Source: Brockia lithotrophica (GTDB taxonomy: Bacteria > Bacillota > Bacilli > Thermicanales > DSM-22653). Taken from it: a stretch of DNA of 64,000 nt. A program made the translations under genes and the position numbers. Below the pieces are notes generated by a model that was not told where the DNA came from, made no database searches, and worked only from the letters and a program-made list of their open reading frames with translations. Within the stretch, counting starts at the first letter, position 1. Each line of letters begins with the position of its first letter. The DNA is taken from contig NZ_RBIJ01000001.1 of assembly GCF_003633725.1 (NCBI RefSeq), positions 1 to 64,000 of the forward strand, read 5' to 3'. Positions 25,116 through 31,332 of the stretch are shown piece by piece.

Positions 25116-26438
25116 TCACACGTGCGGCAGGAAGAAGAGCTGAATGAGAAAGACCACGGCAAAGAAGTAGAGGAGCGGGTGTACCTCGCGACCGCGGCCG
25201 CGGACGAGCTTGAGGATGGGATAGGCGGAGAAGCCGAGGGCGATGCCCGTGGCGATGCTCGAGGTAAGCGGCATGGAGAGGATCACGAGAAAGGCGGGGA
25301 AGGCCTCGTCGAATTCGTCCCAGGGGATTTCCCGGAGGACGTGGAGCATGAGGCTTCCCACGAGGATGAGGGCGGGGGCGGTGATGGCGGAAAGCCCGGC
25401 GACCGCCTGCACCGTGGGGAAAAAGAAGAGCGTGAGGAGGAAAAAGCCCGCAACGGCAACGGCGGTGAGACCCGTCCGTCCCCCGGCGGCCACGCCGGCG
25501 CCGGATTCGATGTAGGCGCTCGTGGGGCTCGTGCCGAGGAGGGCGCCTACGCTCGTGGCCACGGAGTCGGCGAGGAGCGCTTCGCGCGCCCGAGGAAAGC
25601 GGCCGTTTACGAGGAGCCCCGCCTGTTCGGCGATGCCGATCATCGTCCCCGTAGTGTCAAACAAGGTGATGATGAGGAAGGCGAGGACGACGGTGTAGAG
25701 GTCGTAGCGGAAGAGGTCGACGAAGGGCGTGAAGGGATCGACGACGAAGAGGCCGTCGGAGGGGAGCTTCGGCAGGGAGAAGAACCCCTGATCAAAGGTG
25801 AGCATGCCCACAGCCGCGGCCACGATCGCCGTCACGAGCATTCCGAGGAAGATCGCCCCGGGGACACGGCGGGCGTAGAGCACGACGGTGACGAGGAGGC
25901 CGAAAAGCGCAAGGAGGGTTTGGGGCGCCTTGAGGTTTCCCAGGGCTACGAGGTTTGTTCCATGCGCCGTGACGATGCCGGAAAGCCTGAGGCCGATAAA
26001 GGCGATGAAGAGGCCGATACCCGCGGTGACCGCGTGCTTGAGGCTTGCGGGGATGGCGTTGAGGAGGTCCTCGCGAAAGCGGGTCACGGAGAGGATCACG
26101 AAGAGAACGCCGGCGACGAAGACCGCCCCAAAGGCGACGCGGTAGTCGATTCCCGCAGCGCTTCCGACGACGGAAAAGGCGAAGAAGGCGTTGAGCCCCA
26201 TCCCCGGGGCGACGGCGATCGGGTAGTTCGCCCGAAGCCCCATCCACAAGGTTCCGAGGATCGTCGCCACGACGGTGGCGAAAAAGGCGCGGTCGAACGG
26301 CACCTGGGCCTGCCCGAGGATGATCGGGTTCACGACGACGATGTAGACCATGGTGAGGAAGGTGGTGAGTCCGGCGAGGACTTCGCGCCCGGGGTTCGTC
26401 CCCCGTGCGGATAGTTCGAACATGCGGTCCAAATCCAC
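25116..26438 (-). CDS. Purine (hypoxanthine/guanine) permease, PbuG/AzgA type
   Basis: A 440-residue permease of the NCS2/AzgA family with 12 or more predicted helices, the length of Bacillus PbuG. Typical segments are VAPGMGLNAFFAFSV and LFDTTGTMIG, both in substrate-site regions of the family. GTG at 26438 has AGAGGGGGAA upstream; the frame is open further upstream without homology. It is divergent from miaB. I looked for a purine riboswitch in the 200-nt leader and saw none. It probably imports hypoxanthine, guanine or adenine by proton symport. Confidence 0.88.
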   Translation of the reverse strand: MDLDRMFELSARGTNPGREVLAGLTTFLTMVYIVVVNPIILGQAQVPFDRAFFATVVATILGTLWMGLRANYPIAVAPGMGLNAFFAFSVVGSAAGIDYRVAFGAVFVAGVLFVILSVTRFREDLLNAIPASLKHAVTAGIGLFIAFIGLRLSGIVTAHGTNLVALGNLKAPQTLLALFGLLVTVVLYARRVPGAIFLGMLVTAIVAAAVGMLTFDQGFFSLPKLPSDGLFVVDPFTPFVDLFRYDLYTVVLAFLIITLFDTTGTMIGIAEQAGLLVNGRFPRAREALLADSVATSVGALLGTSPTSAYIESGAGVAAGGRTGLTAVAVAGFFLLTLFFFPTVQAVAGLSAITAPALILVGSLMLHVLREIPWDEFDEAFPAFLVILSMPLTSSIATGIALGFSAYPILKLVRGRGREVHPLLYFFAVVFLIQLFFLPHV

Positions 26439-26640
26439 GGCCGTTCCCCCTCTGCGGGTAGGTTTCTTGGCGTTCGACGGGCGGGAGCGAGGGGCGCATT
26501 CCGTACATTTTTCGTCCCGCACGCCTATCGTATTCGGTTTTTCTCCCAACCGCAAGCGCCCAGCGCGCAGCGATCGCCGCAGCGTTTTCCTCGGTCTTTC
26601 GTGCGTTTCCGTGGTATACTCCCTCTGGAGGGATGTACGG

Positions 26641-28269
26641 ATGAGCGAACGGCAGACGACCGAACGCGATCTCACTCGTCTGTTTTCCATACAGGAGTCG
26701 GCATCCAATCTTCGGCTTCTTTCGGACGCATCGGAGGACTCCCCTGCAGGTGTGGGCGAAACCGCCCTTCGGGGAACTCCTTACGTACCTCGGCGGCTTA
26801 CGCCTGCCCGCGTGTACGGCCTGCCCACGGCACGGGAGACGCGGCGGCGGGTGTTTCGCGACCTCCCCGTCGTCCTCTATCCCCCTCTTTCTGAGGAGCT
26901 CCGCCGCTTGGGACGGGGGAAGAAGTACTTCATCTACACCTACGGCTGCCTCATGAACGTCCGCGATTCCGAGACGGCGGCGGGACTTCTCGAGGCCATG
27001 GGCTTTTCCCCTGCCAAAGATCCGGCGGAGGCGGACGTCGTCCTCCTCAACACATGCGCGATCCGCGAAAACGCCGAGGAACGCGTGTTCGGCGAACTCG
27101 GCCGGCTCAAGGGGCTTAAGCGCACGCGCCCCGAACTCGTCGTCGGCGTGATGGGGTGCATGCCGCAGGAAGAGGGCGTGGCGCGCAAGCTGCTCGAAGA
27201 GCACCCAGAGGTGGACCTCGTCCTCGGCACGCACAACCTGCACCTCCTCCCCGCGCGCCTGGCGGAGGCGATTTTGGATCAAGTCCGTGTCTTTGACGTG
27301 TGGAATCGCGAAGAGGAACTCGTCGAGGCGCTCCCCGTGCGCCGGAGCGACCGGATTAAGGCGTACGTAAATATCTCCTACGGCTGCGACGAGTTCTGCA
27401 CGTACTGCATCGTTCCCTACACGCGCGGGCGCGAGCGGAGTCGGCTTCCGGAGGACGTCCTCCGAGAGGTGCGCGAGCTCGCGGAGGCGGGATACCGGGA
27501 GGTCACGCTTCTCGGGCAAAACGTAAACGCCTACGGCAAGGACTTTCGCGACCGCGTGTACACCTTTGCCGACTTGCTCGCGGACATCCAAAAGATCCCC
27601 ATTCCTTGGGTGCGCTTTACGACGAGCCACCCGCGGGACTTCGACCGGCGGACGATCGAGGTCCTCGCCCGCGGCGGGAACCTCGTGGAGCACGTGCACT
27701 TGCCCGTTCAGTCCGGCTCCGACGCCGTGCTTCGGCGGATGAACCGCCGCTACACGCGGGAGTGGTACCTCGAACTCGTGCGGGAAATCCGCGCGCACAT
27801 TCCCGAGGTGGCCCTCACGACGGACATCATCGTGGGCTTTCCCGGAGAGACGGAGGCGGACTTCGAGGCGACCGTCTCCCTCGTGGAGGAGGTCTCCTTC
27901 GATGGCGCCTTTACCTTTATTTATTCCCCGCGAGAGGGGACGCCAGCGGCGCGCTTTCCCGACGACACGCCTTATGAGGTGAAGCGGGCGCGCCTCGAAC
28001 GCCTCAACGAAGTCGTCCGGGCGCACGCCTTAAGGCACAACGAAGCGCTCCTCGGCCGGAGCGTAACCGTCCTCGTGGAAGGTCCGAGCAAGCGCGACGG
28101 CCGCGTCCTCGCCGCGCGCACGCGCACGAATAAGCTCGTACACTTCGAAGGTCCGCCGGAACTCGCCGGAGAGTTCGTCCGCGTGCGCATCGAGCGCGTG
28201 CAGCCCTACACGCTCTACGGCACCTACGTCGGAGCGGCGACTCCTGCGGAGGTGGAGGTCGGCGGATGA
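26641..28269 (+). CDS. miaB: tRNA-2-methylthio-N6-isopentenyladenosine-37 synthase MiaB
   Basis: A 542-residue radical-SAM methylthiotransferase acting on A37 of tRNAs already modified by MiaA. The N-terminal domain has the cluster cysteines in YGCLMNV, LNTCAIRENAEE and VMGCMPQEE; the radical-SAM motif is CDEFCTYC; a TRAM domain ends the protein. About 95 residues precede the first motif, longer than usual but similar to the Bacillus protein. ATG at 26641 follows GGAGGG. It overlaps ricA by 4 nt. A TATACT at 26615-26620 could be its -10 box, but the -35 is poor. Confidence 0.95.
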   Translation: MSERQTTERDLTRLFSIQESASNLRLLSDASEDSPAGVGETALRGTPYVPRRLTPARVYGLPTARETRRRVFRDLPVVLYPPLSEELRRLGRGKKYFIYTYGCLMNVRDSETAAGLLEAMGFSPAKDPAEADVVLLNTCAIRENAEERVFGELGRLKGLKRTRPELVVGVMGCMPQEEGVARKLLEEHPEVDLVLGTHNLHLLPARLAEAILDQVRVFDVWNREEELVEALPVRRSDRIKAYVNISYGCDEFCTYCIVPYTRGRERSRLPEDVLREVRELAEAGYREVTLLGQNVNAYGKDFRDRVYTFADLLADIQKIPIPWVRFTTSHPRDFDRRTIEVLARGGNLVEHVHLPVQSGSDAVLRRMNRRYTREWYLELVREIRAHIPEVALTTDIIVGFPGETEADFEATVSLVEEVSFDGAFTFIYSPREGTPAARFPDDTPYEVKRARLERLNEVVRAHALRHNEALLGRSVTVLVEGPSKRDGRVLAARTRTNKLVHFEGPPELAGEFVRVRIERVQPYTLYGTYVGAATPAEVEVGG

Positions 28270-28610
28270 ACGCGGAGAAACCGACCGAAACTGAACTCGT
28301 CCGCGCCCGGGCGCGCGCCGTGGTGGAGGTTTTGCGTGCGAGCGAGGTTGGCCAACGCTTTCGCGCTGCCGCCGCGCGCTGCGCCCGGCATCCCCGCCTC
28401 GCCCCCCTCGTCCGCGCTTGGCACCTCGCCCGCAGCCGTGGGGATACCGCCGCCGTGGAACGTCTCGAAGCGGAGATTTCCGCCTATCCGGTGGGCGCCG
28501 AGTACCTCGTTCTGTGGGAGGAGCTTGCCGCCCGACGCGACCTCGTGTTGTCCGTCCTCGAAGGTGCGTTGAACCGCGCGCTGGGGGAGGCGGGTTCGGA
28601 CGGTGTGTAG
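28266..28610 (+). CDS. ricA: YlbF/YmcA-family protein RicA
   Basis: A 114-residue helical protein of the YlbF/YmcA family, placed after miaB as in Bacillus. In Bacillus RicA joins RicF and RicT to steer RNase Y and supports sporulation and biofilm formation. Sequence shows the family helices (VVEVLRASEVGQRFRAAAAR...). The start overlaps the miaB stop (ATGA). Transcription beyond it enters an AT-rich segment. Confidence 0.83.
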   Translation: MNAEKPTETELVRARARAVVEVLRASEVGQRFRAAAARCARHPRLAPLVRAWHLARSRGDTAAVERLEAEISAYPVGAEYLVLWEELAARRDLVLSVLEGALNRALGEAGSDGV

Positions 28611-28664
28611 GTCCTTCTTGCGAAAAATTTGTGATTATGATCTCTTTCGGAGGTTTATTCGTCT

Positions 28665-29459
28665 ATGAACGACAAAATATTTAACTTTAGAAAAGCAATT
28701 TTTGATTTTAACGGCGAATCATTTATTTTTTCTCGTGCTGACACTGAATTTTTTGTTTATAAATTAAGTGATATTCCTAAAGCCCTAGATTGCGTTGATA
28801 GTGCTCGTAAGCGAGGGTTTATTGTAATTGGTTTTTTAACATTTGAAGCATGGAGGGCTTTTTTAAACGATAGTGTAGAATTAAAAAACATTGATTTAGG
28901 AAGAGGTGTCAAAAAAGACGAAAAACTTAATTATAATATTAATTTAGATCTACCATTAGCATGGTTCGGTTTATTTTCTGATAAAGAATATAATTTAGAT
29001 AATTGCGCATATAAACCAAATGAAAATGATTCTAGATCTGTTTATTCTCCTGGTTATGGTGAAGATAAATGGTATTGGGTGGACAGCGAGAGATGGAAGC
29101 AACTCCTTTTCGCATTGAGCAAAGGGTACTTTCCTGACGGCATATTAAAAGAAGCGTCGTGGTACTCTTATGCTACCGTGTTTTCTCAATTGCAGAGTGT
29201 TCTGCGCACAGGAGAACTTGAAGTATTGAACTTGACTTTTCGTTTGGTCTTGCCTTTATCTCGTGCACTCCGTACCCAGGAGTTGGTGCATTTCTATAGG
29301 AATCTCGTTCGTCGGCAGGGTGCTCGATACGGAGCATTTTTTCGATTTTGGTACAGCATTTGTTTTTTCGGCCTCACCGGAACTTTTTTTCACCTGGGAC
29401 GGTCGGACGATCCATCTCCGGCCGATGAAAGGAACAGCACCTCGCGGAAGGTTTGCTGA
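28665..29459 (+). CDS. pabB: Aminodeoxychorismate synthase component I, 5' part, frameshifted (pabB)
   Basis: The first about 225 residues match the N-terminal part of PabB: GFLTFEAWRAFL, LPLAWFGLF and later a GELEVLNLTFRL block that corresponds to the usual GDTYQVNLTF. PabB makes 4-amino-4-deoxychorismate from chorismate for folate. After a run of six T at 29337-29342 homology moves to the next frame; one T fewer would keep the frame open. The tail to 29459 in this frame is not PabB. Bases 28620 to about 29050 are only about 25-30% GC, while neighbours are near 68%. ATG follows GGAGG by 11 nt. This is either a broken gene, an error in the read or assembly, or a +1 shift site. Confidence 0.75.
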   Translation: MNDKIFNFRKAIFDFNGESFIFSRADTEFFVYKLSDIPKALDCVDSARKRGFIVIGFLTFEAWRAFLNDSVELKNIDLGRGVKKDEKLNYNINLDLPLAWFGLFSDKEYNLDNCAYKPNENDSRSVYSPGYGEDKWYWVDSERWKQLLFALSKGYFPDGILKEASWYSYATVFSQLQSVLRTGELEVLNLTFRLVLPLSRALRTQELVHFYRNLVRRQGARYGAFFRFWYSICFFGLTGTFFHLGRSDDPSPADERNSTSRKVC

Positions 29460-29982
29460 AGAAGATGCAAAACGAGGAGCGGAGCTCTTGGCATCGGAAA
29501 AAGATCGGTTGGAGCTTTTCCAAACCGCCTCGAATATTGTAGAAGAACTACGTCCTGTGGTCGACGGTAGCGTTCGAATCGGTTCCCCCGTTTTGGAGGC
29601 ATATCCGACTGTCTGGCAACTAACCCTCCCCATTGAGGCAGAGACACGGAACGGTATCAATCTCCCGGAGCTTTTTCGAACTTTGTATCCCCCTACGAGC
29701 ATCGCCGGTGTGCCTAAACGCGCAGCGCTTAGGTGGATTGAACGGTTAGAAGGAACCCCCCGTGGCCTTTATACGGGTGTTATCGGGATTATCGATTCGC
29801 GGAAAGCGCAGTTTAGCGTTGCCATTCGCACGGCCGTCGTCGACAACCCGAATTCGCGACTCATCTTTGGAACGGGGAGCGGGGTGACTTTACACTCGGA
29901 TGCAAAACGGGAATACCAGGAAGCAATCCTTAAGGCCGCAATTCTCTTGCCCCCAACCCAAGATGCCCCCGGCACTTTTTGA
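29263..29982 (+). CDS. pabB: Aminodeoxychorismate synthase component I, 3' part, frameshifted (pabB)
   Basis: This frame carries the chorismate-binding core of PabB from about 29337 onward: FDFGTAFVFSASPELFF, then RPMKGTAPRGR, EELRPVVDG, PKRAALRWIE and GLYTGVIG, then a final ILLPPTQDAP. The GTG at 29263 is only the first possible codon of the frame; the 25 residues before the shift point have no homology. It continues the 5' part in a +1 frame. Near its end (29960-29982) the reading again appears to leave frame, because the pabC frame follows as in fused PabB-PabC proteins. Base composition here is intermediate. Confidence 0.75.
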   Translation: MHSVPRSWCISIGISFVGRVLDTEHFFDFGTAFVFSASPELFFTWDGRTIHLRPMKGTAPRGRFAEEDAKRGAELLASEKDRLELFQTASNIVEELRPVVDGSVRIGSPVLEAYPTVWQLTLPIEAETRNGINLPELFRTLYPPTSIAGVPKRAALRWIERLEGTPRGLYTGVIGIIDSRKAQFSVAIRTAVVDNPNSRLIFGTGSGVTLHSDAKREYQEAILKAAILLPPTQDAPGTF

Positions 29983-30661
29983 AACGATGCGCCTCGATGA
30001 CGGTGAAATTTTCCTTGAGGCGGATCACCTCGCGCGTCTGACGTCCTCCCTTCGGTACTATGGGTTTCCGGATCGACAGGAAGAGGTTGAATGGGCCCTT
30101 TGGAAGGCAAAATCAGAACATCCTGTAGGCCTCTTTCGGCTGCGTCTTGTCGTCCCCAGGTCGGGTTCGATTCACTGGCATGTGGAACCCCTGGGTTCTC
30201 CGTGGAATGACCAAGGACGGTTGGCCCCGAAGCCGAAAGCAGGTTTAGAAGGAGAGGTGTTCTCCGTTCCCGCTCGTGTGCCGATCGACGAAACGGAGGA
30301 TCGTTGGTGGCACAAACGGATCGACCGTTCGTTTTACGAAGAGCGTCTCGCGGAAGGTTCGGAAGAGGTAGCGGTCCGGCAAATCCCCGTTCCTATCGGA
30401 GGTTTCGATGTACTTCTTTGGAATCGCGCGGGACGACCGACGGAGCTAACGCGGGCCAACCTTGTCGTCGAGCGCGCTGGCAGGTTATACACCCCGCCGC
30501 TCGAAGAAGGACTTCTTCCCGGTGTTTTTCGTGGTTACCTCCTTGCTGCCGGTACCCTAGAGGAAGCTCGTATTTCTTGGGAAGACCTTCGGGCTGCCGA
30601 TCGCCTTTACGCCATCAACAGCGTGCGAGGTTGGATGCCGCTTCGGATTATTTTTTTATAA
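29963..30661 (+). CDS. pabC: Aminodeoxychorismate lyase (pabC), perhaps the fused C-terminal domain of pabB
   Basis: A 232-residue PLP enzyme of the class IV aminotransferase family that splits aminodeoxychorismate into 4-aminobenzoate and pyruvate. It opens with LFETMRLDDGEIFLEADHLARL, has the active-site lysine candidate in WWHKRIDRSFYEERL and ends like PabC. It overlaps the pabB end by 20 nt, and no Shine-Dalgarno sequence precedes the ATG. Homologues exist as PabB-PabC fusions, where ILLPP...LFETMRLD runs without a break, so this may have been one protein split by a one-base change. Confidence 0.78.
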   Translation: MPPALFETMRLDDGEIFLEADHLARLTSSLRYYGFPDRQEEVEWALWKAKSEHPVGLFRLRLVVPRSGSIHWHVEPLGSPWNDQGRLAPKPKAGLEGEVFSVPARVPIDETEDRWWHKRIDRSFYEERLAEGSEEVAVRQIPVPIGGFDVLLWNRAGRPTELTRANLVVERAGRLYTPPLEEGLLPGVFRGYLLAAGTLEEARISWEDLRAADRLYAINSVRGWMPLRIIFL

Positions 30662-30792: not shown

Positions 30793-31332
30793 GTGGAGAG
30801 CCTTGAAGGGAAGCGGATCCTCTTCCGCGAGATTCTCACGAAGGCCGTCGTCGGCCGCGGGCGGAAGTACGTGCAGAACTCGCACCGGATCACGCCCGAG
30901 CACACGCCCACGGGAGTTCTCGGTCTGTGGGTGATCGGTCACGTCTTTTCCGGCCGTCGCGTGGATGACGCCGTAGAGGTTGAAGGGAGCTACGAAGTGA
31001 ACGCGTGGTACGCGTACGACAACAACACGAAGACGGACGTTGCCAAGGCGACCCTCACGTACCGCGCGCGTATCCCCCTCGGCTACCTCGATCCGGATCG
31101 TGTCGAAGATCTCCTCATGGTCCGGGTATCGCAACTCGAGGCGCCGCATGCCGTGGAAGCGCGGGTCGTAGACGGAGAGATCGCGATGACCGTGGCCATG
31201 GAACTCGAGGCGGAACTCGTGGGGGAAACGCGCCTCTGCGTCGTCGTCGCTCCGGATGCCTGTGCCTTTCCGGGAGAAAAGGAGAAAAAAGATCCCGTGG
31301 AAGACGACCTCTTCGCCGACGAGTTGGACTGA
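30793..31332 (+). CDS. cotE: Outer spore coat morphogenetic protein CotE
   Basis: A 179-residue CotE, the mother-cell protein that organises the outer spore coat. It aligns along its length with the family: REILTKAVVGRGRKYVQ, LGLWVIGH, VEGSYEVNAWYAY, NTKTDVAKA, ELVGETRLCVVV and an acidic C-terminal tail. GTG at 30793 has AAGGAGGG 6 nt upstream. Upstream sequence 30738-30752 is complementary to the ribosome-site region 30771-30786. Its place before mutS-mutL matches Bacillus. Confidence 0.95.
   Translation: MESLEGKRILFREILTKAVVGRGRKYVQNSHRITPEHTPTGVLGLWVIGHVFSGRRVDDAVEVEGSYEVNAWYAYDNNTKTDVAKATLTYRARIPLGYLDPDRVEDLLMVRVSQLEAPHAVEARVVDGEIAMTVAMELEAELVGETRLCVVVAPDACAFPGEKEKKDPVEDDLFADELD

Follow-up and report, generated by a model that had tools for sequence, protein, structure and literature searches.

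A split PabB-PabC locus in Brockia lithotrophica and its probable course of gene loss

The stretch of DNA analysed here, a 64-kb window of a GC-rich spore-forming member of the Bacillota (genome G000, a 1.87-Mb draft in 12 contigs), displays three overlapping frames between ymcA (end 28610) and cotE (start 30793), which correspond to the N-terminal part of PabB, the C-terminal part of PabB and PabC. PabB-PabC joins 4-amino-4-deoxychorismate synthase to the cognate lyase and supplies 4-aminobenzoate for folate. The best explanation of the locus, with a probability of roughly two in three, is that the bifunctional PabB-PabC gene, and hence the synthesis of 4-aminobenzoate, is undergoing loss in this genus. 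The locus looks mostly like ordinary gene loss in progress and not like a new way of reading genes. The main rival of this reading is an assembly error at a run of six T. The features of the locus and its neighbours are as follows.

26350-28269, + strand: miaB, native left neighbour, an ORF with 88% amino acid identity to the sister species.
28266-28610, + strand: ymcA/YlbF-like gene, the last native one ahead of the pab module; its name rests on position and on sequence, Pfam giving no match at E 0.001, and the sister copy is 84% identical.
28611-29076, + strand: AT-rich segment (29.7% GC) formed by the leader and the start of pabB, with a change-point at 29076 and a ribosome-binding site, GGAGG, near 28649-28654.
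28665-29459, + strand: ORF of the PabB N-terminal part, frame 0, ATG at 28665; homology stops at the T run and the remainder is out of frame.
29337-29342, + strand: T6 run (TTTTTT) at the first +1 frame change, in the context GCA TTT TTT CGA.
29338-29982, + strand: PabB C-terminal part (Chorismate_bind), frame 1, with its stop at 29980-29982 and the PMKGT lysine near 29428.
29955-29997, + strand: stretch of 43 bp retained by the sister species as a scar (42/43 identical).
29963-30661, + strand: pabC (4-amino-4-deoxychorismate lyase), frame 2, with its own ATG at 29963, its stop at 30661 and a 20-nt overlap with the pabB frame.
29966-29970, + strand: C5 run (CCCCC) at the second +1 frame change, from PabB to PabC, of equal length in the sister's scar.
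30793-31332, + strand: cotE, native right neighbour (Pfam PF10628, E 2e-49; 96% amino acid identity to the sister).

The C-terminal part of PabB is identified by the chorismate-binding domain (Pfam PF00425, E 3e-53), and the best family for this half alone is TIGR00553 (PabB; 168 bits, E 2e-49), a score that falls under the whole-protein cut-off because PabB is split. The catalytic lysine lies within RPMKGT, in alignment with the relatives, and the pattern P-[IM]-K-G-T separates PabB from TrpE (PIAGT). The D-L-x-R-N-D motif, present in 47-49 of 51 relatives, is absent from the window copy (29509-29545); it is also absent from the intact copies of Hydrogenibacillus and of another family member (G003), where the PMKGT lysine is kept, and its absence is thus a trait of the clade rather than a sign of decay. 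PabC is a class IV aminotransferase (PF01063, E 3e-31, scored on a longer ORF from 29900), whose PLP lysine (HK) and TPPLEEGLLPG segment align with the relatives and which displays similarity to solved lyases. The PabB reading frame is not continuous, being changed at 29337-29342, and the PabB-PabC fusion does not occupy one ORF, being split at the C5 run.

Both frame changes would need a +1 movement of the ribosome to be crossed. In nearly all relatives in the genome collections PabB and PabC are intact fusions that share one ORF, about 580-830 amino acids long, and both shifts are therefore derived. The Hydrogenibacillus ortholog (704 amino acids, one frame) aligns through both frame-change points. 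The earlier note is confirmed in placing one +1 change within PabB at 29337-29342 and another between PabB and PabC at a C/G run near 29965. Closer intact relatives were sought in the GTDB contig collection and Hydrogenibacillus remained the best. As a separate observation, the PabB-PabC protein of G003 (812 amino acids) carries a long histidine-rich insert within its PabC part.

The sister species, G001, belongs to the same genus and displays 87-88% DNA identity over much of the window. A search throughout its genome recovered neither PabB nor PabC, while the miaB-ymcA-cotE site is shared and contains, deep inside a 350-kb contig, the 43-bp scar that matches the pabB/pabC junction of the window at 42 of 43 positions. 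Since the scar encodes the PabC start, it is a remnant and not an insertion target; its sole difference converts the pabC start from ATG to ACG in a genome where the gene is otherwise gone. The scar retains the same five C; the second shift is therefore shared between the species, is not a sequencing error and is real. For the second site this already makes improbable the outcome envisaged in the earlier note, an intact gene restored by one base fewer at both runs. The T-run region is deleted in G001, and the comparison with the sister informs the second shift only. In G001 the ymcA frame continues through the scar sequence up to what was once the pabB stop codon, which gives the protein a changed C-terminus (G001:C2, about 129350-129500).

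The two shifts differ in what they do. Because the overlap contains an ATG that belongs to pabC, the second shift amounts to a gene fission that need not disable anything; the pabC frame and its motifs are kept after it, and it seems to be a tolerated fission. Upstream of the pabC ATG at 29963 no Shine-Dalgarno sequence can be seen, so that expression of pabC would depend on coupling. The first shift interrupts the catalytic domain of PabB and represents the real lesion, one that is probably disabling. Apart from the frame changes, the coding frames are free of stops. A caveat to the loss reading is that little decay appears besides the T run: the catalytic residues checked are intact, and deviations at conserved columns are about as many as in the intact family members.

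Comparison with the sister bears on the age of the lesion. Between the two species 22% of fourfold sites are different across ten shared genes, and neutral drift of as little as 0.05 substitutions per site would produce about 4 new stops over the three segments, none of which is observed (chance 0.02). The frames were therefore under selection until recently, through most of the period that followed the species split, unless the locus came later; a late transfer into the Brockia lineage would weaken this dating. At positions on which the outgroups agree, the PabB consensus is kept by Hydrogenibacillus alone at 25 and by the window copy alone at 7, the corresponding counts for PabC being 2 and 5. 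This faster loss of consensus residues in PabB, not in PabC, would fit relaxed selection on PabB, with the reservation that proteins of the Brockia type evolve fast in general, as miaB shows. Deviations at conserved columns number 20 in the window copy and 17 and 18 in the intact family members, so that the decay is young.

The composition of the locus bears on its origin. The GC content rises in steps from 29.7% (to about 29076) through 45.7% (to about 29391) to 55.5% beyond, against a mean of 66.0% for the window, of which the pab locus is the sole stretch below 50%. The coding segment of 30% GC, the first ~465 bp, begins directly after the ymcA stop, and the contrast between a low-GC start and GC-rich surroundings drawn in the earlier note is thereby borne out. 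The AT-rich start is truly coding: its frame is free of stops over 132 codons (chance 6e-6 at the same composition) where the other two frames contain 12 and 26, its codon positions are biased in the order GC1 > GC2 > GC3, it is preceded by a good ribosome-binding site and it matches Hydrogenibacillus PabB. The N-terminus of PabB is rich in F, Y, M, I, N and K (a fraction of 0.39 vs 0.13 in Hydrogenibacillus). Repeats or mobile-element ends flanking the pab module were sought and only short, chance-like repeats were found, and a search of the genome for a second copy of the pab DNA returned none.

These features raise the possibility of horizontal acquisition, or of a mosaic gene with a 5' end taken from an AT-rich pabB, independently of any decay; the odds lie somewhat against such an origin. 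A GC content of 30-55% in a 66% GC genome, the peculiar N-terminus and a position between ymcA and cotE that differs from that in Hydrogenibacillus all speak for it, as does the PabB tree, in which the Brockia and Hydrogenibacillus copies form a pair that leaves out the other family member, whereas miaB places Brockia outside both. On the other side, every one of the three segments, including the AT-rich one, has its closest relative in Hydrogenibacillus, a member of the same family, and no AT-rich donor of the N-terminus turned up in ~800 genomes from the phylum and the class. On the horizontal acquisition proposed earlier the evidence is divided; the gene may have been transferred within the family.

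An assembly or sequencing error at the T run, behind which the true locus would be an intact pabB with an overlapping pabC and a working gene, is unlikely. PabB is otherwise wholly open with its active-site residues kept, and the draft assembly carries apparently foreign contigs, as would suit an error. One published Brockia genome, which may not be this assembly, derives from a hybrid Nanopore/Illumina metagenome, in which homopolymer errors occur (PMC10215811). Against an error, the genes of the window shared with the sister are in frame, save for short hits that resemble shadow frames, even though the window outside the locus contains 243 C/G runs of at least 5 and 12 A/T runs of at least 6; indel errors are thus rare and one at a single T6 run is improbable. 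A run of six T is moreover easy for Illumina, and both the faster shedding of consensus residues by PabB and the loss of the locus in the sister point away from a working gene. Of the suggestions made in the earlier note, an assembly error is thus ruled out at the second shift by the same bases in the sister genome and unlikely at the first, and a decaying gene is the best supported, given the reduction of the sister locus to its scar.

Recoding is far less probable. On this reading TTT-CGA, CCC-GGC or TTT-TGA would be the site of transcript slippage or of a +1 ribosomal frameshift, through which full-length PabB, and perhaps the PabB-PabC fusion, would be produced. It is known that +1 shifts occur readily at UUU when a pyrimidine follows, and TTT-CGA and TTT-TGA presumably fit such sites; CGA is possibly a slow codon, the T run is closely preceded by GGAG, and the frames are otherwise intact. 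TTT-pyrimidine pairs are, however, common in the gene, with 8 more in the N-terminal part, RNA structure beyond chance was found at neither shift site and the second site displays no stimulator. No relative uses a shift there, the intact homologues being all read in one frame, and the sister discarded the gene; the genuine +1 shift considered in the earlier note thus finds no positive support. Among bacteria, +1 shifting at CCC_UGA has been reviewed (PMC5009743). That +1 shifting at TTT-CGA and CCC-GGC maintains a low synthesis of 4-aminobenzoate, as a bypass by which the gene's death would be delayed, is very improbable.

The remaining folate genes are compatible with gene loss. Both folP and folK are present in the two species, and their retention is the basis for proposing that 4-aminobenzoate is taken up. 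A PabA query returned no convincing PabA/TrpG on the native contigs of the window genome, nor anywhere in G001; the enzymes may use free ammonia in place of an amidotransferase subunit. As for another pabB in the genome, which the earlier note suggested looking for, a pabB/trpE-pabA pair does occur on contig C11 (3.4 kb), but this contig is probably foreign, being 91-94% identical to Hydrogenibacillus schlegelii. A fused trpE-trpG on C7 likewise looks foreign, the contig having 54% GC and its own pyrG. On contig C1 trpE lies directly before trpD.

The gene-loss reading has four steps, the first two of which are shown by the sequences of the two genomes. Before the sister species parted, or close to that time, a +1 shift in the C run divided the fusion into pabB and a pabC that overlaps it, and the sister lineage then deleted everything except 43 bp. 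In the window genome the +1 change in the T run, the cause of which is proposed and the bases of which are observed, breaks the catalytic domain of PabB, and the cell would take up 4-aminobenzoate from its surroundings. The genus would be dependent on imported 4-aminobenzoate if the pathway reading is right. The two hydrogen-oxidising thermophilic sisters would accordingly display stages in the loss of a vitamin pathway, from a split and still coding fusion to, in one of them, a broken catalytic domain and, in the other, a scar of 43 bp. Should this be confirmed, these lithoautotrophs would be predicted to need 4-aminobenzoate from their neighbours. Pathway calls based on the mere presence of pabB and pabC hits would be wrong here.

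The locus can be set beside three known systems. With the fusion of Hydrogenibacillus schlegelii MA 48 it shares the domain order, the PMKGT lysine and the PabC HK motif, at 61% identity over the PabB core and 64% over PabC; the Hydrogenibacillus copy differs in its one intact frame, its 72% GC region and its other neighbours, the Brockia copy displaying three frames and an AT-rich start. With programmed +1 frameshift genes of the prfB type it has in common the +1 direction, the TTT-Y context and the GGAG upstream of the first site, and it is unlike them in that the shift is not conserved among functional homologues and that at the first point the A site is not occupied by a stop codon. Pseudogenes formed during the reductive loss of vitamin pathways are resembled through the frame break in a catalytic domain, the near-complete deletion in the sister and the retention of the downstream folate genes. 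The locus departs from a pseudogene in progress in that most of its coding capacity is still clean and its second shift is seemingly a tolerated fission.
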